From Pelagomonas calceolata (Eukaryota; Sar; Pelagophyceae; Pelagomonadales; Pelagomonadaceae), in NCBI GenBank assembly GCA_918797485.1, contig CAKKNE010000001.1, forward strand, positions 4,588,001-4,652,000: DNA of 64,000 nt. Direction: 5' to 3'. This document shows positions 10,140 to 61,715 of this stretch, in pieces. A program made the position numbers and the translations under genes. Each line of letters starts with the position of its first letter. Positions within the stretch are counted from its first letter, which is position 1. Below the pieces are notes generated by a model. That model saw nothing but the letters and a program-made list of their open reading frames with translations. It did no database searches and had not been told where the DNA came from.

Positions 10140-10760
10140 CTACCCGAGTACCGTCTGCATCTGGCACTTCGTGCCGTAGTAGCCCGAGAAGCATTTGCAG
10201 AGGCCCGAGTCGTAGTCGCACAATCCTCTTCCCGAGCAGTCCCGGCCCTTCGTGTTGCCCATGCCCGAGAGGATGTCCGTGCCCGACGGGCACTCCTGGA
10301 GGCTACAGTCGGGGCCACGGAATCCGAGATCGCAGACGCACCCCACGTGCTTCATGGCGTCCCAGGGCGTCGAGTAGACCGTGCCCGCTTCCGAGGCGAG
10401 CTGCTTCTGCGTGTAGCAGATGCCGCGGTCCGAGCAGTCGTTCGGGCAGGAAGTGCGCTCGCACGCGATGCCCTCGTAGCCGTCGAAGCAGTCGCACTCG
10501 CCGGACTTGCGGTCGCAGGAGCCCTGGTTGGAGCACTCGGCCATGCCGTGGACGTCGTTGTGGCCGGCGACGGGGTACTTGACCCAGGCCGTGTCCTTGG
10601 GGCACGTGCGCTCCGAGCAGTCGGCGGCCTGCCAGGCCGTGTCGTTGTTCGGGCGGAGGTGGCAGGTGCAGCGGTCGTCGGCGCCGCACGAGCCGTGGCC
10701 GGAGCAGCCGTTCGGGCAGTAGGCGTAGGCCGAGGCGGCGAGGAGGAGGAGCTTGTACAT
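10140..10760 (-). CDS. Secreted EGF-like repeat protein
   Basis: 206 residues with a clear signal peptide ([13 protein letters not shown], cleavage likely before YCPNGC). The mature part is four Cys-rich EGF-like modules with CPNxCSGHGSC, CSNQGSC...[23 protein letters not shown]...[12 protein letters not shown] and CSGRGLC...[12 protein letters not shown]. No transmembrane segment or anchor, so it is probably secreted or wall-associated. Similar small EGF-like proteins are common in stramenopiles, usually without known function. The start is the only ATG near the signal peptide, and the protein looks complete. Confidence 0.8.
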
Positions 10761-11402
10761 CGTTTTGTGGTGTGGTGTTTTTTTTGTTTCTGCGAGGGGG
10801 GGGCGCGGCGTCGGGTCCGGGGCTCTCAGCGCGCGCGCGGCGGGGCGGCGGCCGGCGGCGGCCCGGGCAGCCCCCGGGAGCTGCGCTCGGTGGGAGCCGG
10901 AGCAGCCCGTGGGAGCGAGGGCACGCGGCGCGATGCCGGGCAGCCCTAGCGCCGCGGGGCGGCCTATTGGTCCAGCGAGCTTATTTAACGAGCGTCTGCT
11001 CTTCGCAGAGCAGGGACGTCGCGGTGAAGCGGGACTCCCAGGATCCGAGGCGATGGTCCTTTTCAGTGTGTTGGCAGCCTAATTTTGTAGTTGCGCGGGC
11101 TGTAACCTTGTCAAAAGAGCCTCCAAAGCTGGTCCAGCGGCTATAATCTCTGCCAGTGGAATTACTAGTGTAGCTTCTAGTTACACGAGGCGCACAAAAT
11201 ATTGCGTCCGGAAATGTCCTGAACGAGGCCTGCACGCTGCCGGGCACCCCTAAAGCCCTATGCGTACGCGTCCAAAAAAATCGGCGCGCGTCCGCGACCG
11301 CGCCAGGCCTCGGAGACAACTGTTGGAAGAAACCTCTAAAATGAGGAGATACCGTCCCCGGGGCGTGTCTTCAAGGGCTCCCGCGCTAGGAAACCCGCGT
11401 GC
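10761..11402. other. Intergenic region, GC-rich, no gene seen
   Basis: The first 250 bp are extremely GC-rich and include a palindrome around CCCGGGCAGCCCCCGGG (10863-10880) and a second GGGCAGCC near 10936, both upstream of the EGF-like gene start. The rest, to the promoter palindrome at 11403, shows no coding pattern. Confidence 0.4.
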
Positions 11403-11425
11403 GCTAGCGGCATGTAAGACACTAG
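11403..11425 (+). promoter_or_regulatory. Promoter palindrome, copy 1
   Basis: GCTAGCGG followed by TGTAAGACACTAG, 200 bp upstream of the SNARE start. One of ten related sites placed upstream of start codons in this window. Confidence 0.5.
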
Positions 11426-11624
11426 GGATGCCTAACAAAACAACACAAGCGCCGCCGCGACAAGCGCTACGCATCGATTGCGCTAGCCGGCACTGGTTTC
11501 GATACCATTTCTGCGAACCACAGCGCAGCGCTTGGCCGCACGGCGTGAAGCGACACCTGCTTTGTACTGGGGCTACAGACAAAGCTTGCAAAGTTCCTCA
11601 CGAACGCGCGGCAGCCATCCGAAC

Positions 11625-12384
11625 ATGGCATCGGTCGCCGAGCTCCTCCCTAGAGCCGCGCGCCTGAAGTATGAATTAGAAGTGCAGCTACGAGCGGTCG
11701 AGCAGGGCGCCGGCGACGCGGGCGACTGCGGCATGGGTCTGCGCGAGCTCTTCACGCAGATTAACACGCTGCGCCAGTTGCTCAACGCGGAGCGGCCCGA
11801 GCGGCGCAATCTCTGGAAGGTCAAGATTGACGAATTGGGCCACGAGGCGCAGTTCCTCTCGAACGATTTGAGGAGGGTCACGAACTTCCACCAGCACCAA
11901 CGGGAACGGGACTCGCTCTTCCGGCGGCGGGCCGGGGCGGCGCCGTCGTCGGCCCACGACGATTTGTTAGAGGCCGAGGACAGCTACGCGCGGTCGGGGA
12001 ACCAGGTCGACCGCGGCGTCCCGTGACGTTCCGCTCATGGAGGTGGTGAATTGGACCGCGCGTCGCCGCGATGGCGTGGAGGTGGTGGAAAAGGCACCGG
12101 CACGCCATCGCCGCGACGACGCACCGCCGCGTCCTCACGAGCGTGCCACGCAGGTCGACGAGCTCATGGAGACCGGCCGCGCGTCGCTCGATTCATTGCG
12201 GGCGCAGCGCGAGCGGCTCAAGAACACGCACCGGAATGCGTTAGATATGATCAACAAGCTCGGGCTCTCGGACACGGTCATGAAGCTGATCAACTCGCGG
12301 AACCGGCAGGACCGCAAGATCGTGGTCGGCGGCTTCGTGTTCTTGTTCGTGCTGTTCTACCTGTGCATGCGGTGGCGCGGGTAA
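11625..12384 (+). CDS. Golgi Qb-SNARE (membrin/GOS-like), two exons
   Basis: Exons 11625-12005 and 12154-12384 join in phase 0 to give 203 residues. The join reads through SGNQ|VDELMETG, giving a continuous SNARE motif (about residues 115-180, with GRASLDSLRAQRERLKNTHRNA then LGLSDTVMKLI) followed by a C-terminal anchor (KIVVGGFVFLFVLFYLCMRW). Without splicing the frame would stop at 12026 before the SNARE motif, so the intron is needed. The N-terminal half is helical, as in membrin/Bos1 proteins, which work in ER-Golgi fusion. The stop overlaps a good donor-like word (GGGTAAGTAC), so alternative 3' splicing cannot be excluded. Confidence 0.85.
12006..12153 (+). mobile_element. SNARE intron, possibly a diverged introner
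   Basis: A 148-nt GT-AG intron flanked by a 9-bp direct repeat CAGGTCGAC across donor and acceptor. The donor lies in the left copy and the acceptor AG just before the right copy, the layout of the clear introners elsewhere in the window. Its interior has an inverted repeat (CGCGATGGCGTG ... CACGCCATCG), and the words GATGGCGTGGAGG and CACGCCATCG also occur in the introners. The ends match the introner terminus only at CCACGCAG versus CCACACAG, so family membership is an inference. Confidence 0.45.
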
Positions 12385-12622
12385 GTACGTGTGTGTTGTA
12401 GTCGCGGTGCGCGCGCGCGCCCCGGCCCGACGGCGCGGAGGCCGGCGCCACCGCTCCCGGGCGCCAGGTCCTCTCCGCGGGCATCGTCTCCGCGGGGCCG
12501 TGCGAGCCCTGAATTCAAGCAGGTGCGGGTCCTTCAGTCTAGGGGCGGATCCCGACGCACGGCCTCGTGGCGCGGAACGGGGAGGCCCTCTAAGAGTATG
12601 TCCTAGACTCGTAAAATGGAGA

Positions 12623-12787
12623 TTAGCGCGAGGAGAGCCTACGCGCGGCTTCTTCGGCGGCGGCGCGCTTCTTCGGGCGTTGCGTCTCCTCGGTGGCGGC
12701 GCGGCCGCGTTTCTGGCGCGCGCGCGGCTTTGCCGGCGCGGCCTTCTTGATGCGTTTGGGAACGGTGCGCAGGACCTTAATTAGCGC
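12623..12787 (-). CDS. Possible 3' exon, Lys/Ala-rich tail
   Basis: The minus strand encodes a basic tail (KKAAPAKPRARQKRGRAA then PKKRAAAEEAARRLSS) with strong GC3 bias, preceded by an acceptor-like sequence ending TCTCAG near 12788. No ATG-started frame contains it, so it would be a terminal exon of a gene not otherwise resolved. It may also be non-coding sequence downstream of the GST fusion gene at 13150-14802. Confidence 0.2.
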   Translation of the reverse strand, partial: ALIKVLRTVPKRIKKAAPAKPRARQKRGRAATEETQRPKKRAAAEEAARRLSSR

Positions 12788-12796
12788 TGAGATTTT

Positions 12797-13057
12797 TTGG
12801 AGAGAGCAGAATCGATAATCTATGTGATTGTGGTTAGCGAGAGCGAGGGAAAAAGCGTGCGGGTTCCCTGGCTTGGCGCTCCCCCACAGGCGCGGGAGGG
12901 AACGGCGTGGTGCATCTGTCCCTGCAACGCCACGATCGTGCTCGACGGCGGCGGGGGCGGCGGCGGCGTTGGCGGCCCGGCGGCGCCCGACGAGTGGGAG
13001 CCCGAGGAGGAGTGGCTCCGCAACTACATGCGCAACGTGAAGATGCACCGCGGCTGA
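12797..13057 (+). CDS. Possible exon, Gly-rich acidic protein end
   Basis: The plus frame closes at 13057 after a stretch with coding-like codon choice: a Cys-rich TAWCICPCNATIVLDG, a glycine run, then EWEPEEEWLRNYMRNVKMHRG. There is no ATG at its upstream end. A CCCCACAG acceptor-like sequence near 12890 suggests a terminal exon beginning at about 12891, but I could not find its 5' partner. Function unknown. Confidence 0.3.
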   Translation: MERAESIIYVIVVSESEGKSVRVPWLGAPPQAREGTAWCICPCNATIVLDGGGGGGGVGGPAAPDEWEPEEEWLRNYMRNVKMHRG

Positions 13058-13098
13058 TTCTTCTGGGACATAGGACTACGAGATAGGACTACTAGTCT

Positions 13099-13145
13099 GG
13101 GAGTTTTAAAATCAAAAGCAGCGCATGCTCCGTCACGCAACTCCC
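13099..13145 (-). other. Hairpin in the 3' region of the Sec-GST gene
   Basis: Read on the minus strand, just after the stop at 13150: GGGAGTT, then GTGA, an 18-nt spacer, TGAT, and AACTCCC. The 7-bp outer arms pair perfectly and GTGA/TGAT resemble the quartet of a eukaryotic SECIS. The 18-nt spacer is too short for a normal SECIS helix II and lacks an apical AA, so this is at best an atypical candidate. Confidence 0.2.
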
Positions 13146-13149
13146 GTAT

Positions 13150-14802
13150 CTAGAGGCGCCCCCTCGCGCCGGGACTCAGGTAGGAGACGTAGTATCGCTT
13201 CGCCGCGTCGAGCATCTCGCCCTCGGGGCAGATCGACTCCTGGCACGACGCTCGGTCGCGGATGGCACGCGTCCACGCGGCCAATGAGTCGAAGGCGCGA
13301 AGAATGTCACCTTCGAAGTCGATGCCGCGGAAGTATGGCCTGCGTGGAAGGTGATGTGAACGGCGTCGACGCGAGCTGCCCGACACCGCACCCGACAGCG
13401 TGACGAAGAAGCGCTGGACCCACGGCGCGGCGACGCATTCCGCGAAGCTAAAATCGTCGCCGAGCAGGAACGGCGCTCTATCGAGCAGCTCGTCGACCGC
13501 CGCGAGCCGGTCGACGAAAAGAGCGCGTCGCTCCTCCGCCTGAGCGTCGCTCGAAGCCCGCAGCAGATCGTAGTACGTCGTCTCGACGTCGGCCCAGCGC
13601 GCCAGGAAGCGTTCTATCCTCTCGAGATCGTCCGGCGTGCGCGGATACAGCTCCGGACCGCCGACGTACTCAGCGATGTACCTCGCCACAACGGTACTTT
13701 CGATGACGAGCTCCTGACCGTGTTCCAACAGCGGGACGAGGGCCGTGCCGGAGCCCACCCGTTTGTACTTTTCAACAAATTCCGCAGGCTTGGCCTTGAG
13801 GTCGATGATCCGGTGGTCGAACTGGATATTCTTTTCTAACAACGCGATCCAGGCCCTTTGCGCGAAGGGTCATACGCCGCTATTCCACAGCGCCACCTTG
13901 CCGCTCGCCTTTTCTTTGATCGCGTCCGTGCCGTCCACGAATCTAGCCTCGACGTTGTATTCCCTCGACTCGTCCAGTGTTTTGATTCCGTTGCTCGTGT
14001 CGAGCAGCACTCTCCGCGTCGTCCGCGTCGAGACGTCGATGTCTAGATCCGAAGCCGCCGCAGCTGCGACGACGGTCGCGACGTCGTCCACGGACGACGG
14101 TGGCGTGAGACTGAGCTTCGTGACTAAATCCTCGCCGCGGTAGCCCACGCTGCCGATCGCTTTATTCGCATCCCTCGCAAAGCGCGCGAAGGGGTTGTCG
14201 ACGGCCTTGATGCGTGCCGAGCCCGGTTCGACGACCTCGTGCGGGCACACCACGACGGCGTCGGCGCCAAAATTCCGCACGGCGGCATCGAGCGCGTCGG
14301 CCTTGCCTTCAAAATACCCCGGGATGCCTCCCGCGAGGCCGTTCTCGGCGTCCGCAGCGACGCCGACGAGGACGTATCGGCCGACGCCGGCCTCCTTGGC
14401 AGCCTTCGCTATGGCTTCGTTCGGCGGGCCGTTCTTCGCGCGGTACTCCTCCTGATCCTGGGGACTGTACGACGCAAATAGAACAGGGATGTCGCCCGTG
14501 CCCGTCGGCGAGGCCTTGGCGCCCGTGAAGCCGCCCACGCAGCTTATGCAGGCGCCGGCGCCGTCCAGCGCGGCGGCGATATTGTCGTTGCCGGCGTCGG
14601 CGGCGACCCAGTCCACCTGGTCCATCCAGGGCTCGGCGTCCGCCGGCCGGCCGGAGCGGCTCACGGACGTGACGGCGACGCCTTTCGCGGCGAGCGTTTT
14701 GCAGACGGCTTTGCCGATGAATCCGCTGCCTCCAATCACGCATGTCTTCAGCGCTGCTGCCGTCGTCAAGACCGCTAGGACCGCGCATCGCAACATCATC
14801 AT
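13150..14802 (-). CDS. Rossmann (NmrA/epimerase-like)-GST fusion, probable selenoprotein
   Basis: Read from the ATG at 14802 to TAG at 13150 through an in-frame TGA (13870-13872): 550 residues with Sec as residue 311. Residues 1-16 are a hydrophobic leader. Residues 18-300 are an NAD(P)-binding domain with GGSGFIGKAV. The GST domain starts before the TGA: KVALWNSGV, TGA, PFAQRAWIALLEKN, the beta1 strand and the catalytic loop where other GSTs have CPFAQR. It continues with VPLLEHGQ...VIEST and an all-alpha C-terminal half. The downstream part has no ATG before its GST core, so two separate genes would each be broken. Known: pelagophytes have many selenoproteins. Inferred: Sec insertion; no convincing SECIS was found by eye. 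A stop codon or sequencing error is the alternative. Confidence 0.8.
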
Positions 14803-14813
14803 AGGCGTTCTGT

Positions 14814-14866
14814 GAGGTGATGCTCTCCCGGAGAGCTTTGGAGGTGATGTGCTCTCCGGAGCTTTG
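14814..14866. repeat. Two-unit tandem repeat upstream of the GST fusion
   Basis: Two units of about 27 bp (GAGGTGATGCTCTCCCGGAG then AGCTTTG, repeated with small changes) start 12 bp upstream of the gene's first ATG. The CTCTCCGGAG core is itself palindromic. Possibly a promoter or 5'UTR duplication; the rest of the 14803-15107 gap shows nothing recognisable. Confidence 0.5.
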
Positions 14867-15107
14867 GACCCAACTTGAGACAGAGATACGCGAGCAGGCG
14901 ATCGAAAAGTGAGCTAGGCGACCCCTGGCGAGCGCTGCCGGTGCGACAGCGACCTTACGACGCCATGGCAGCGGACGAGCCTCGATCTGCACGCGCCTTA
15001 GGCTACGGGTTTTACGGGTTTTACGCGCTCAACACCTATGCACAAAGCCCATGTGCATGCGTGCGAGGATTTACAAAACCGCCTTAGGGCGCGCGCCTCA
15101 CAAGGCA

Positions 15108-15848
15108 TCAGTCCAGGATCTCGTCAAGTTCATCGAACGACGGGAAGAACTTGGGCGTCACCTGCTTGTACGCCCGGTAGGCCGGGTGGATGCGCTCGAG
15201 CTCCTTTTCCTCGTATGCCGACTTGGCGTCGAGCAGCAAGTACAGGAGAAACACGACCAGCAGGCGCTGGAAGCTTTCGGTCGCTACGGAAAGACCCCCC
15301 GCCGCAACAAGTAACCCCCCGTAAATCGGATGTCGCACGTACGAAAACGCGCCCGTCGTCTTGAGCTCGTTGCCCTCGACCGGCGCGGCGAATGGCGTCA
15401 AGTTCCCCGCACCCAGATCAAGCACGCCCTTGGCGATGGCGCCGATTCCCGCCACGACCAAGCCCGGGCCCAGCAGCGTCTCGATGGCGCCGCCGACGAC
15501 CGGCACGTCTCCGACCAAGAGCAGGAGGAGCAACGCGGCCTGCCCGGCCACGTACACGATGCTCGGGCCGGACTGCTCGACCTGGACGTTGCTCTTCACG
15601 CTGTCCACGTATTCCTGCGCGGCGTCCCGCACGTTCGACTCCGTGCCGCGGGCAGCCATGCGTTGCGTGAAGTCTTGCAGCATGTTCGTTTCGACCTCGT
15701 CGACGGACTGCTCCGGGGCGTCCAACGGTGCCGGCGCCGGCGGTGCTTCCTCCAAATCCGCCCTGAGGGAGAGCACCGGCTGCTTTATCCTAAGTGCTGG
15801 CGCGAAGGCTGCTGCACCAGCGATGAATAATGCGCTGCGCAGCATCAT
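15108..15848 (-). CDS. Plastid ICMT-like membrane methyltransferase
   Basis: 246 residues from the ATG at 15848. The leader MMLRSALFIAGAAAFAP carries the AFAP signature of bipartite stramenopile plastid targeting. Three to four hydrophobic segments follow (around residues 95-150 and 195-215). The C-terminal part has GAFSYVRHPIYGG and a late ERIHPAYRAYKQVTPKFFP, the SAM-binding and C-terminal signatures of the isoprenylcysteine carboxyl methyltransferase / phospholipid methyltransferase (PEMT) fold. Many plastid members of this fold act on lipids or quinones; the substrate cannot be told here. Confidence 0.75.
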   Translation of the reverse strand: MMLRSALFIAGAAAFAPALRIKQPVLSLRADLEEAPPAPAPLDAPEQSVDEVETNMLQDFTQRMAARGTESNVRDAAQEYVDSVKSNVQVEQSGPSIVYVAGQAALLLLLLVGDVPVVGGAIETLLGPGLVVAGIGAIAKGVLDLGAGNLTPFAAPVEGNELKTTGAFSYVRHPIYGGLLVAAGGLSVATESFQRLLVVFLLYLLLDAKSAYEEKELERIHPAYRAYKQVTPKFFPSFDELDEILD

Positions 15849-16032
15849 CGTATGGAGGAGCTGTGGAGGAGCTGTGGCCACTACGAGGCCGTGCTGCGGT
15901 TCTGAGAGTCGTTTGACGGCACCGCGTTCGTGCGACGCGAGAAGCTGGCGTCCTAAACACTACGCGAATACCCGCGGCACGAAGTATACAGGCCAAAAAG
16001 CTGCCAGATCCACAAATCCGCACAAATCCGCC

Positions 16033-16056
16033 GCTAGCGTCATGTAAGACACTAGC
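16033..16056 (+). promoter_or_regulatory. Promoter palindrome, copy 2
   Basis: GCTAGCGTC, spacer, GACACTAGC (arms pair 8 of 9), 185 bp upstream of the ICMT-like gene start at 15848. The rest of the 15849-16144 gap shows nothing else. Confidence 0.55.
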
Positions 16057-16144
16057 TCCGCACAAGCGTGCGCTATCAGCTCCTTCTTCGCGCTTTCGGG
16101 ACTACATAGGCGCGAGATGCAAGTACCACAATAAGACGATTACA

Positions 16145-16678
16145 CTATCGCTCGCCCGCAGCGACGGCGGGCGGGTCCTCGACGTCGTCGTCGCCGCCGC
16201 CGCGCTGGTCGTAGAACCAGCGGTACCGCGACGCCTCGAGGCCGTCGAGGGGGCCCGCCGCCGGTTTCGACGATTGCGCAGAAAGGTAGGGGTCGTGCGC
16301 GCGAACGGTCGCGACGACGGCCGCGAACGAGTGCGGCTCGCTTACCGCGAGGTCCGCGAGGACCTTGCGGTTCAGGTCTATGTCTGCCGTCCGCAGGCCG
16401 CAAATCAGCCGGTTGTAGGCCACGCCGTGCTCTCGGCTCCCCGCGTTGATGGTCCGGATCCAGCTCTTGCGCATCTCGCGTTTTTTCACCTTGCGGTCGC
16501 GAAAGGCGTACTGCCAGGCCTTCTCGACGCGCTGCACCGCAATCCGGAAGCAGTTCGTCCTTCCGCGGTAGCCCTTGGCGAGCTTGACGAACTTCTTGTG
16601 CTTGCGGCTCGCGAAGTCGCGTGCGGGCACCAGCGGCGCGCGGGCCGCCGGCGCGAGGAGGCGGCGCGCGGCGAGCAT
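16145..16678 (-). CDS. MRPL20: Mitochondrial ribosomal protein bL20
   Basis: 177 residues. Residues 1-25 are an Arg/Ala-rich presequence. Residues 26-130 match bL20: [59 protein letters not shown], then [12 protein letters not shown]. bL20 binds 23S rRNA and is needed early in large-subunit assembly. An added acidic C-terminal tail of about 45 residues ([15 protein letters not shown]) goes beyond bacterial bL20. The presequence makes the mitochondrion more likely than the plastid, where bL20 is usually organelle-encoded. Confidence 0.88.
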
Positions 16679-16886
16679 TGCTGCGACTTCACGCCGTGGC
16701 GGGGTGTGGTCCTTCTTGACGCGCCGCGTCGGCGTCAGCGACGGCAGCCTGAGTGGCTTGAGTGCTGCGGCGCTCGCGCTTGCGGGACCTAGGCTACCGT
16801 GAATTTGCTGTGAGGGCTCGAGAACGTATCGCGGCCCGCAGCGGCGCGTCAGCTCGCGTCAGCTCGCGGTTCAGCCGTGTAATCGA

Positions 16887-18153: not shown

Positions 18154-19500
18154 TCAGGGCAGCGACTGGTAGTTGTAGGCCGCGGGGTCGGTGTGCGCGC
18201 ACGTGATCGCGCGGCCGCCGAACCAGCGCCCGTGGAGCGCCAACGCGGCCGCGTTCGCTGAGGAAGCGTCTGCAAACAGGACGTGCACCAAGCCGCGCGG
18301 GTCCGACCCGTCCACGTAGACGTGCTTGACGTCGCCCTTGCTCCGGCACTCCTCCGTGACGTCGGCCTTGATGTCGTCGCGCCAGGTGGCGCCGTCCTCC
18401 TTCGCCGGGTCGAACATGTTCGTGATCGTAAACGCAGCAGTAGGCGCGCCGACGCCGCTTTGCGCTGGCGGCGGCGCGAGGCCCGCGCGCTGGCCCAGGG
18501 CGTTCATGAGGTTGGCCCTCCCATCCGCACCTAACGCCACGCCGTCACCACCAGAATTGTCGAACTTCCAGTCTCCAGCTGAGGCCGCGCCCATGACGGT
18601 CGCCCCCGGCTCGTAGAACTGGACGGAGATCGGCGTGCCCGCTCCTAATTCAATGCCCGCGATTTTCGTCGAGGCCTTCATGGCATCCTCGGCCTTCACA
18701 AAAGAGACAACAGCAGAGCCAGGCGCGACGGTAGACATATCAACCGACTCCACATCCCCGAACGGAGCTAATACGGTCCGCAAGTCGCCCTCCGTGATGT
18801 TCGGATGTAAATTACCTACGAGTAACTTCCTTCGCGGCGCCGCGGCCCGTTGATCAATTTCGGCCTGCTGCTCGGCGGCGGCCGCGGATTCTTGTTTGGC
18901 CAGGAAGTTCTTCTCGGCCTCCGACGCCTTCACTAAGATAGGAAAGCGCTGGAAGTCCGGCACGGTGCCGTTCAACATCAAAACCATGGGCACGCTCTCG
19001 AGGTCATTCAACTCAACATATGCATAACCCTTGTGTCTATTGGTATATTTGTCGCGGATCATGATCACATCTCGGACCTTCCCGACCTTCTCGAAGAACT
19101 TGCGGATCTGCTTCTCCGTGGCCTTCATCACTAACTGCGACACGAAGACCGTCCGTTGGTCCTTGGTCAAATCATCAATTTCCGTCTGCTGCCTGATCTT
19201 GTGGATGTCGTCGGCGGTGGCGCCGCGGGGCACCTGGGGCGCCTGCGCCGCCGGTCGCCCGCCGCCGGGCTGGTCCAGGCCGCGCCCGTAGTGGCCCTCG
19301 GAGTAGTCCCCGAGCGCCGGGTTCTTCGACCCGCTCCGCGTCCGGTCGCGGCTGCGGTCGCGGCGGCGCCGGCCGCGGCTCCGGCTCCGCGAGCGGTCGC
19401 GGCGGCGCCGGCCGCGCGACCGGCTCCTACTTCTATAGCCGCGGCGGTCATCTCTTCGGCTCCGGTCCCGGTCGCCGTCGCGGCTCCGCGGCCTATCCAT
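18154..19500 (-). CDS. RBM39: RBM39/CAPER-type splicing factor
   Basis: 448 residues from MDRPRSRDGD at 19500. Residues 1-65 are an RS domain with two near-identical Arg/Ser blocks. RRM1 (about 105-185) has RTVFVSQL and KGYAYVEL; RRM2 (about 215-290) has RKLLVGNLHPNITEGDL and SAVVSFV. The C-terminal UHM-like domain (about 350-448) has FTITNMFDP, DDIKADVTEECRSKGDVKHVYVD and ALHGRWFGGRAI, the RBM39 hallmark. RBM39-family proteins join U2AF/SF3B in 3' splice-site selection and act as coactivators. The upstream extension of the frame to 19653 lacks an ATG with any RS similarity and was not used. Confidence 0.9.
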   Translation of the reverse strand: MDRPRSRDGDRDRSRRDDRRGYRSRSRSRGRRRRDRSRSRSRGRRRRDRSRDRTRSGSKNPALGDYSEGHYGRGLDQPGGGRPAAQAPQVPRGATADDIHKIRQQTEIDDLTKDQRTVFVSQLVMKATEKQIRKFFEKVGKVRDVIMIRDKYTNRHKGYAYVELNDLESVPMVLMLNGTVPDFQRFPILVKASEAEKNFLAKQESAAAAEQQAEIDQRAAAPRRKLLVGNLHPNITEGDLRTVLAPFGDVESVDMSTVAPGSAVVSFVKAEDAMKASTKIAGIELGAGTPISVQFYEPGATVMGAASAGDWKFDNSGGDGVALGADGRANLMNALGQRAGLAPPPAQSGVGAPTAAFTITNMFDPAKEDGATWRDDIKADVTEECRSKGDVKHVYVDGSDPRGLVHVLFADASSANAAALALHGRWFGGRAITCAHTDPAAYNYQSLP

Positions 19501-20216
19501 GGAGCTCAGTCGAGGGGTTGGGGAAGTTTGGTACGCCGGGGGCTCTTCGCACGGCGTTGACGGCCTGCGGTGTTCGCGTCGCCTGTGGGGCTGACCTGCC
19601 GCGCGCGTGTACCTACAGCGGCGACGGCGAAGGCCTACAAAGCAAAGCGCCACGGGAGCGAGCCTGGAGCGAGCCTACAATCAAATAGAGCAACCAGACG
19701 GCGCAGCGCAGCGACCAAGATATATTGAAAAAGGTTCGCGCGAGCAGGCGACACCCGCTTTTGCTGATCGAGCTCTTTAGGAGGAGCTGGCTAGTGTTTT
19801 ACGCCGCTAGCTCAGGTCTCAGCCGTCCTAGCGCCGAGTCTTTGCTCCTCCGTGCGTACATCCTCGCGCCGGCCGCCAGTGCATCGCCCTAACCAAACGA
19901 AAAGCGTGTCGTGCGTCGTTGCTGTGGGCGAAACGCCGACGAGGTGACGCTGTTTGGAGCAGCCTGACGAGCACTAAGGCTGGGGAGTCTAAGACAAAGC
20001 TAAAGATAAATCAATTGCGATCGAGCCCCGGGCCTCCTGAGCTCGCGGGTTTCTACGTCGACAGCCATTTCTAGCACCGTAACATCGACGCTAGGTTCCT
20101 CAGGATTCTTAGGCCTCGCGCCCCTGGCCCATGACTCTTGACGCCGGGTAGTCCCGTCCTGTCCAGAACTGGACATGCAAGTATCTAGCTTGGCTCCGAG
20201 TCATAAGGTCAATAAA
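19501..20216. other. Intergenic region, no gene seen
   Basis: 716 bp between the RBM39-like start and the 3' end of the wax synthase gene. It holds the promoter palindrome at 19789-19811 and otherwise moderately GC-rich sequence with no coding pattern in any frame that I could follow. Confidence 0.4.
19789..19811 (-). promoter_or_regulatory. Promoter palindrome, copy 4
   Basis: On the minus strand GCTAGCGGCGTAAAACACTAGC, 289 bp upstream of the RBM39-like start. Same orientation as its gene. Confidence 0.5.
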
Positions 20217-21910: not shown

Positions 21911-22181
21911 CCAAAAACCTCTCTCTCACACACAGCAAAAAACTACTGCCCGCGAGGCGACAGCTGTTGATCTTGCTGCGGCAGGATTGTACTGACAGAG
22001 TGGTGCTCTGGTAGAGAGCTGCTGCCGCGCTCACGCGCGCTGGCGGCCGGAGCTCCCGTGCTCTCACAGACTGCCAGAGAGCTGCTGAGGACTGGCGCGT
22101 AATTGGCGTCGAGCATACGCAAGCGCTCGCCGGCGTGTCGCGACCTACGACGGAAAACCAAAATCAGCAACAAAGTGATCG

Positions 22182-23324
22182 ATGCTGCGCGTCGCGTCCC
22201 GCAGCAGGCTCCTGGCCGGCGGCACATCATCGCTGCGCATCCGCGTACCGCACCGAGGCGTGCTCAGCCAGGCTGCCAACAAGCGCCTCGACGAGCTGGC
22301 CACGCGCCACGAGGAGCTCTCCAAGAAGGTGCAGGCGGGACACGACGCGAACGCGATGCGCGAGCTGCACGGCCTCGACGACGTGCTCGAGCGGCGCCGC
22401 GCGCTCGCCGCGGCGACGAGCGAGCTCGACGATTTGCGAGAACTCCTCGACGACGTCGACGCCGACATCCGCGCCGAGGCGGAGCGGGAGCTGGACAAGG
22501 TGAAGGCGACCGTAGAGACGCTCGAAGCGGCCCTCAAGGCCAAGCTCGCGCCGGGCGACGCGACGGACGCGGCGGCGTCGTGCCTCGTGGAGATCCGCGC
22601 GGCCGCCGGCGGCGACGAGGCCTCGGTCTTCGCCAAGGACCTGTTGGGCATGTACGAGAAGTACTGCCAAGCGAAAGGCTGGCGCTTCGCGGCGCACGAC
22701 GTCAGGAGGACGGAGTTCGGCGGCGTCGCGAGCGCCATGGCTGAGGTGACGGGAGAGGGCTGCTACGCGGCCTTGCGCTTCGAGAGCGGCGTCCACCGCG
22801 TCCAGCGCGTGCCGACGAACGACGTTAGGATTCACACGTCGACGGCGTCGGTCGTCGTCCTACCCGGTGTCGACCAGATCGAGTTCACGCTAGATGAAAA
22901 CGACGTGCGCATCGACACGTTCCGCGCGTCCGGCGCCGGCGGCCAGCACGTCAACACGACGAACTCCGCCGTGCGCGCGACGCACCTCCCCACGAACACC
23001 GTGGTCTCGATCCAGGACGAGCGGAGCCAGCACCGCAACAAGGCCAAGGCGCTGGAGCTGTTGGCGCGGCGCGTCGGCGGCGCGCTCGCGCAGCGCCGGG
23101 CGGCCGAGGAGTCGGCGCAACGACTCTCGTTGCGCGGCTCGGGCGACCGGAGCGAGCGCATCCGGACATATAACGCTCCGCACGATCGGGTCACCGATCA
23201 CCGCTGCCAAGTGACGAGTCCCGGCGTGCCGCGCGTGCTCGGCGGTGAGATCGAGGTGTTCGTCGACGCGCTGATCCAGCTCGACGCCGACGAGCGCGTC
23301 GCCGCGTTCGAGGCGTCGTCTTAG
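22182..23324 (+). CDS. Organellar peptide chain release factor 1
   Basis: 380 residues. The N-terminus (MLRVASRSRLLAGGTSSLRI) is a presequence, mitochondrial by composition. A coiled-coil domain 1 (about 30-130) is followed by the RF core with VEIRAAAGGDEASVFA, FESGVHRVQRVP, and the peptidyl-tRNA hydrolysis motif GGQ near residue 252 in RASGAGGQHVNTTNSAVR, then RSERIRTYN and DRVTDHR. These are RF1/RF1a features, so it should terminate at UAA/UAG in an organelle. The frame is whole. The stop is 42 bp from the convergent double-HIT gene. Confidence 0.9.
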   Translation: MLRVASRSRLLAGGTSSLRIRVPHRGVLSQAANKRLDELATRHEELSKKVQAGHDANAMRELHGLDDVLERRRALAAATSELDDLRELLDDVDADIRAEAERELDKVKATVETLEAALKAKLAPGDATDAAASCLVEIRAAAGGDEASVFAKDLLGMYEKYCQAKGWRFAAHDVRRTEFGGVASAMAEVTGEGCYAALRFESGVHRVQRVPTNDVRIHTSTASVVVLPGVDQIEFTLDENDVRIDTFRASGAGGQHVNTTNSAVRATHLPTNTVVSIQDERSQHRNKAKALELLARRVGGALAQRRAAEESAQRLSLRGSGDRSERIRTYNAPHDRVTDHRCQVTSPGVPRVLGGEIEVFVDALIQLDADERVAAFEASS

Positions 23325-60714: not shown

Positions 60715-61715
60715 ATGTCGTCCAAGGCCAAGGCTGCCAAGGAGGAAGCCCCGTTGTCGCCGACGAAGAAGGGCAAGAAGTCGACGAAAGGCAACAGTCC
60801 GAAGAAGGACCCGAAGTCGCCGGCCAAGGTCAAGTCTGTGACGAAGGCGGCGGAGACGCCCGTCAAGACATCGAGCAAGAAGAAGGCGGCGGAGACGCCG
60901 CAGACCAAACCGAAGGAGAAGAAGACCGGCCCCTACGAGGCGCGCTGGAAGAAGGCCATGTACGTTTTCCCTTGATATACTTTCTATCACATATACACGT
61001 AGGAGCATCTTCCAGAAGTTCCAGCCCGGGTTAGGACACGACGGCACCGGTTTGTATGGTACATTGACAGCCGGCACGATGCGCACGATGATTGAAAGAT
61101 GTGAAGTGGTAGGACGGACGCACGTCGACGTCGGCGCGGCCGACGGCAAAGTGTTGCTGGGGGCTTTATCGCTCGGCGCGGCGCACGTCTATGGCGTCGA
61201 GATTTCGGGAGACGGTCTACAGACGAAGTTCGAGGGCATGCGCGACGTGCTGGCCCAGAGCCACAGCATGGGCGCGTCGTCGGCGCGCCTCGCTTGTAGC
61301 ATCGACATCTGCGATTTACGAGGAGCTACCGTCGAGGCTTGGTTAAATGAAGTCTTCAACGAGTCCGACGATACGGAGATTACCGTGAGTGCGGTCTGGC
61401 ACGGGTACGTTCTTTACTTTGATATGTTTATGACATACGTTATATAGGTTCAACACCGAGGCCAAGGAAACTTTACTCAGCGCGTGCGCCCGGTCACAGC
61501 GCGTGACGCGCTTTTCATTGATAGGCCCCGCCAAAAGAGATTACGGCAACCCCGAGGCTGTTATTGATTGGGTCGGCCAGCAGGGCGGCGCGTGCAAATT
61601 GGTAGGGGACGACAAGGGCCACCTGTCGGGGAGCGGCGAGAACCAGCGCATCATGACCTTCGAGAAAACGGACGCCGGGTCCTCGCCGCAGCGGGCGCTC
61701 GCCTTCGACGACTAG
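60715..61715 (+). CDS. DOT1-like SAM-dependent methyltransferase, three exons
   Basis: Exons 60715-60959, 61003-61404 and 61448-61715 give 304 residues; both 43-nt introns must be removed to keep the frame (joins KKA(M)SIFQKFQPG and VWHG|FNTEAKE). Residues 1-75 are a Lys/Ser/Pro-rich, histone-H1-like tail. The catalytic domain begins GHDGTGLYGTLTAGTM, followed by the SAM-binding HVDVGAADGKVLLGALSLGA and VYGVEI, and a DICDL acidic motif. This order resembles DOT1-type lysine methyltransferases, which methylate H3K79 in nucleosomes; another class I protein methyltransferase is possible. A nuclear site is likely from the basic tail. Confidence 0.78.
60960..61002 (+). other. 43-nt intron 1 of the DOT1-like gene
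   Basis: GTACGTTTTC...CTTGATATAC... ending CACGTAG. AT-rich within GC-rich exons. Confidence 0.85.
61405..61447 (+). other. 43-nt intron 2 of the DOT1-like gene
   Basis: GTACGTTCTT...CTTTGATATG... ending TATATAG. Same length and similar internal words as intron 1. Confidence 0.85.

Follow-up and report, generated by a model that had tools for sequence, protein, structure and literature searches.

Selenocysteine (Sec)-containing glutathione S-transferases (GSTs) have been described in several systems close to the one considered here. The selenoproteins of the pelagophyte Aureococcus anophagefferens include a GST, which is over-expressed during virus infection at its final three time points, according to the available excerpt of PMC5917014. 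A survey of algal genomes, likewise available in excerpt, counts 82 selenoprotein genes from 33 families in Aureococcus, lists GST among the algal selenoprotein families, finds that almost 90% of algal genomes encode GST in a Cys or another form, and reports that GST and MSRA are fused in Emiliania huxleyi (PMC7539508). Four Sec-GSTs of COG0625 have been recorded from the Sargasso Sea (PMC1088965, excerpt), and GST terms are absent from PMC6627142. Given these earlier records of algal GST selenoproteins, a Sec-GST is to be expected in such an organism. The initial annotation of the locus analysed here regarded a Sec-GST joined to a reductase-like domain as an unusual redox enzyme; in the light of the excerpted reports, a Sec-GST as such is nothing out of the ordinary in an alga of this kind (PMC5917014, PMC7539508, PMC1088965), and what is new is at most the reductase-like fusion together with an odd 3′ stem-loop. 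No Rossmann-GST fusion selenoprotein was found in the excerpts, titles and opening parts of abstracts searched, which does not prove its absence from the record.

The gene lies in a window of 64,000 nucleotides of Pelagomonas calceolata (contig CAKKNE010000001.1, positions 4,588,001 to 4,652,000; G+C content 65.8%), to which all coordinates below refer. Translation of the minus strand revealed a single frame of 550 codons running from an ATG to a TAG (14802-13150), with a TGA at 13872-13870 (codon 311) as its sole internal stop. The sequence KVALWNSGV (residues 302-310; 13899-13873), recognised as the GST β1 strand in alignments with proteins of known structure, abuts this TGA on its 5′ side and PFAQRAW follows directly in the same frame, an arrangement already described in the initial annotation and confirmed by the translation. 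The claim that the second part lacks an ATG of its own also stood, as the next in-frame Met after the TGA is residue 530. In the program-made list of open reading frames (ORFs), the first half has by itself an ATG start and a stop, and the GST half begins at a TTG (13842), already without the active-site motif.

Pfam searches placed an NAD(P)-binding Rossmann domain (NAD_binding_10) at residues 24-198 (14209-14733, minus strand; E 5.9e-12, 46.3 bits versus a cut-off of 27.2), with the GxxGxxG fingerprint present as GGSGFIG at residues 24-30. When the TGA was translated as Cys, the search detected the GST N-terminal domain (GST_N_2) at residues 310-378 (13669-13875; E 4.4e-13, 50.1 bits versus 25), followed by the GST C-terminal domain (GST_C_2) at residues 420-513 (13264-13545; E 1.2e-07, 32.1 bits versus 24.9). 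This domain order bears out the proposed fusion, with the NAD(P)-binding domain in front of the GST. By sequence, the first part combines the fingerprint and the domain profile of an atypical short-chain dehydrogenase/reductase (SDR), and the second has both GST domains and the active-site Cys/Ser column of a Cys-type GST. None of the NCBIfam matches listed (25 of 32) reached its curated cut-off; in particular, the Uxx-star and HUGP-GUXX-star families scored 23.8 and 13.6 bits, with cut-offs of 325 and 66, respectively. A hydrophobic N-terminus, judged by eye, is a candidate signal peptide. Single-sequence structure prediction was unusable (mean pLDDT 37.8).

The best matches among PDB sequences were plant lambda GSTs (4pqi, E 8.6e-13; 4pqh), SspA and omega GSTs, all restricted to the GST half. 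In the four displayed alignments (4pqi, 4pqh, 4qq7 and 6v91), for which the query carried Cys at that place, residue 311 is always matched by Cys, in plant lambda GSTs as well as in SspA. The plant lambda GSTs and the omega GSTO1 share with our gene a Cys-type site and the two GST domains by sequence, but they have Cys where it has TGA. Searched alone, the Rossmann half retrieved weak PDB matches, with the 39 kDa subunit of NADH dehydrogenase (NUEM) at the top (E 0.0019); it may resemble the Coq11-type atypical SDRs. As for the known selenoproteins, the Aureococcus protein, compared by description only, is a GST listed among the selenoproteins of a pelagophyte, and the excerpt of PMC5917014 mentions no Rossmann fusion. 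The E. huxleyi protein is a Sec-GST fused to another redox domain, but its partner MSRA is itself a selenoprotein and not an NAD(P)-binding domain (PMC7539508, excerpt), and the Sargasso Sea proteins are Sec forms of a GST, as the Pelagomonas protein probably is (PMC1088965, excerpt).

The alignment of homologues at the TGA, proposed from the outset, was carried out with bacterial sequences, using the GST domain with X at the TGA against ORFs from 38 fetched loci at a threshold of E 1e-4. These loci came from the phylum of Leptolyngbya, with 194 genomes searched (41 with a match, of which the best 30 places were taken), from five genomes of a second phylum (one matching) and from five single genomes. 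Four of the 38 loci gave no row at this threshold. In the column of the TGA, the 34 resulting ORF rows had Cys in 16 cases, Ser in 12 and a gap in one, the other five not covering it; counting only distinct rows, since two places had been fetched twice, the figures were 16 Cys, 11 Ser, one gap and four not covered. Ranked by E-value, the top two rows carry Ser in this column (STFSQR) and the following four carry Cys. The TGA therefore occupies the position of the GST catalytic Cys, as originally claimed, with Cys in the displayed PDB proteins and Cys or Ser in the bacterial relatives. One mark of a eukaryotic selenoprotein gene, an in-frame TGA that aligns with the Cys of homologues and has coding sequence on both sides, is present here. 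A DNA pattern for U-P-F-[A/S]-Q-[R/S]-x-W, searched in its exact form, retrieved 62 stretches from a prokaryote collection and one viral contig; among these 63, phmmer detected no relatives of the GST half at E up to 10, and no homologues by peptide pattern were confirmed in the viral and genome contig collections.

Coding potential was followed along the frame in 50-codon windows with a codon-usage score derived from 14 further ORFs of the window, hand-picked as likely genes. The score was positive from residue 1, across the TGA, up to the window starting at residue 421, fell to −0.14 and −0.03 in those starting at 451 and 481, and was positive again at 511. When all frames were compared in which a TGA is flanked on each side by 60 or more open codons, the lower-side score of our gene (0.24) was the best of the 93 found in the window, the runner-up reaching 0.17. 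The negative dip may contain an in-frame GT-AG intron of 57 nt (13396-13340) or 45 nt (13384-13340), with a donor, GTCGGG, that falls short of a strong consensus; the dip extends beyond this putative intron, so that the coding support is weaker in that region.

Eukaryotic Sec insertion would depend on a SECIS element, which the initial annotation suggested might lie at 12600-13149 on the minus strand. No canonical form was found there, either by pattern scans or in Rfam. The primary sequence pattern taken from the literature (NTGA, 10-13 nt, AA/CC, 15-39 nt, GA; PMC2375036, excerpt), combined with a loose fold test, gave no passing candidate in the 1000 nt downstream of the gene; 5′ quartets conforming to the pattern occur once within 600 nt and three times within 1000 nt, none folding suitably. 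Extending the same search to 2150 nt yielded one passing candidate, at 11114, which is poor. The fold test was permissive, as 52 of the 128 control segments, each 1000 nt long, contained at least one passing candidate, and the scans were run without a positive control. Other pattern scans produced one weak candidate each, at 11785 and 12167, which we rejected as poorly paired and opposite plus-strand ORFs. Rfam searches of the intervals 10500-16700, 12500-13152 and 13085-13152, with E-values up to 10 admitted, detected no SECIS; the Rfam E-values are spread over 4227 families, so that a weak SECIS could be missed. A SECIS may also lie behind an intron in the untranslated region (UTR) or farther away. 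ARAGORN found no tRNA anywhere in the window. Opposite the GST 3′ region lies a small convergent ORF (12797-13057, plus strand) without Pfam match; if it is real, the two 3′ UTRs overlap.

Four TGA triplets occur on the minus strand within the first 750 nt past the stop codon, at 13135, 13114, 12536 and 12517. The first two, the only ones in the first ~610 nt, are brought face to face by a SECIS-like stem-loop that starts 4 nt after the stop codon (13145-13099, minus strand; GTGA opposite TGAT). Arranged in the manner of a SECIS, it comprises a perfect lower helix of 7 bp, two internal loops (3 and 5 nt), a core with TGAC opposite TGAT and a G in front of the quartet, an upper helix of 6 bp and a loop of 5 nt, TGCGC, without AA/CC. 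Its minimum-energy fold contains the same two helices, but the 5′ GA pairs with UU, so that the putative GA/GA quartet is a reading of the sequence and not of the computed fold. In the excerpted description of Ostreococcus tauri, a G precedes the quartet in all SECIS but one, a trait that our stem-loop would share (PMC2375036). In contrast, its apical loop does not have the two unpaired A or C residues of a SECIS (PMC3316567, excerpt), and neither the upper helix nor the loop reaches the minimum of even the loose type I model for Asgard archaea, with an upper helix of 7-15 bp and a loop of 8-20 nt (PMC11227280, excerpt).

We estimated how often such a structure arises in shuffled sequences, with loose and strict thresholds chosen after the stem-loop had been seen. 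For the shape with TGA opposite TGA, 31 (loose) and 4 (strict) of 5000 shuffles of 150 nt matched, and 12 and 1 of 2000 shuffles of 750 nt; with NGA allowed on one side, the corresponding numbers were 95 and 13 of 5000 and 122 and 16 of 2000. Across both strands of the whole window there were nine loose matches and strict ones at only two places, 13145-13099 itself and position 61517 of the minus strand, which holds the other strict stem-loop with a SECIS-like core. The folding energy of the stem-loop had a z-score of −2.25, with 6 of 200 shuffles equally good, and that of a 90-nt stretch a z-score of −0.89, with 39 of 200 equally good. The structure could alternatively be a 3′-end or processing hairpin.

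Taken together, these observations favour a gene encoding a selenoprotein, with a Rossmann domain, a Cys-type GST and Sec at the TGA 13872-13870, to which we assign a probability of about 75%. This reading is supported by the location of the sole internal stop in the active-site column, by the coding signal on both sides and by the known algal Sec-GSTs, and it is weakened by the lack of a canonical SECIS, by the Ser types in the top two bacterial rows and by the codon dip at 451 and 481. Frame, motif, homology and coding signal support the two main points of the original proposal, Sec at the TGA and a Rossmann domain fused to a GST, whereas the canonical SECIS was not found. The latter result, for the 1 kb downstream, would also be expected if the TGA were a nonsense change or a sequencing or assembly error at an ordinary Cys codon, the gene being then a normal or freshly broken Cys-type GST fusion. 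All nine Cys codons of the frame are TGC, each a single base away from TGA. Nevertheless, 131 other codons are also one base from a stop, via 158 paths, so that a random single-base nonsense change would fall on codon 311 only about once in 160; moreover, the 550 codons contain no further stop, the codon signal persists beyond the TGA and GST selenoproteins are known in algae. We consider an error or nonsense change unlikely, though it keeps some weight.

The TGA might also be a genuine stop, as the standard code and the ATG and stop of the first half would have it, in which case residue 310 would be the last of an SDR protein and the GST half would be untranslated or separate. This appears very improbable, given that the GST β1 strand precedes the TGA in frame, that Met is absent between the TGA and residue 530 and that the GST half retains its codon signal. 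Finally, a donor-like GTATGA at 13875 (GGC|GTATGA) overlaps the TGA, which could then be spliced out; such an intron would remove PFAQRAW, which aligns without gaps to GSTs in the displayed PDB alignments, and we find this scarcely plausible.

The surroundings of the gene are eukaryotic in character. Domain searches identified EGF repeats (10140-10760, minus strand), a SNARE C-terminal domain (12037-12384, plus), an L20 ribosomal protein (16145-16678, minus) and an RRM protein with an RBM39 linker (18154-19653, minus). A PEMT/ICMT-like methyltransferase (15108-15881, minus) has near its N-terminus a stretch, AAAFAP, reminiscent of the plastid-targeting motifs of algae with secondary plastids, and a peptide chain release factor (22179-23324, plus; PCRF and RF-1 domains) is probably organellar.

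As a selenoprotein, the gene product would join an atypical SDR/NAD(P)-binding domain to a lambda/omega/DHAR-like GST with a Sec active site. Its Sec would be inserted via the eukaryotic SBP2/eEFSec route, guided by some 3′ signal; the Sargasso Sea Sec-GSTs differ in this respect, being decoded in the bacterial manner with the signal beside the TGA. In Cys-type GST classes, the attack of the thiol on disulfides, glutathionyl adducts or dehydroascorbate and its recycling by glutathione are established and, by analogy, the selenol might attack the same substrates and be recycled by glutathione. The Rossmann domain might, at a guess, serve as a source of reducing power. It would be bolder to see in the locus a self-contained NAD(P)H-linked selenol enzyme, a Sec-GST with its own NAD(P)-binding domain served by a miniature SECIS, devoid of AA, 4 nt past the stop codon; in this complete form the idea is doubtful.

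If the Sec reading is true, standard annotation would miss the GST half by truncating the protein at residue 310, and the algal selenoproteins would gain a Sec-GST with a reductase-like partner. Should the small stem-loop prove to be its SECIS, the gene would also provide a test case for how small a SECIS can get.
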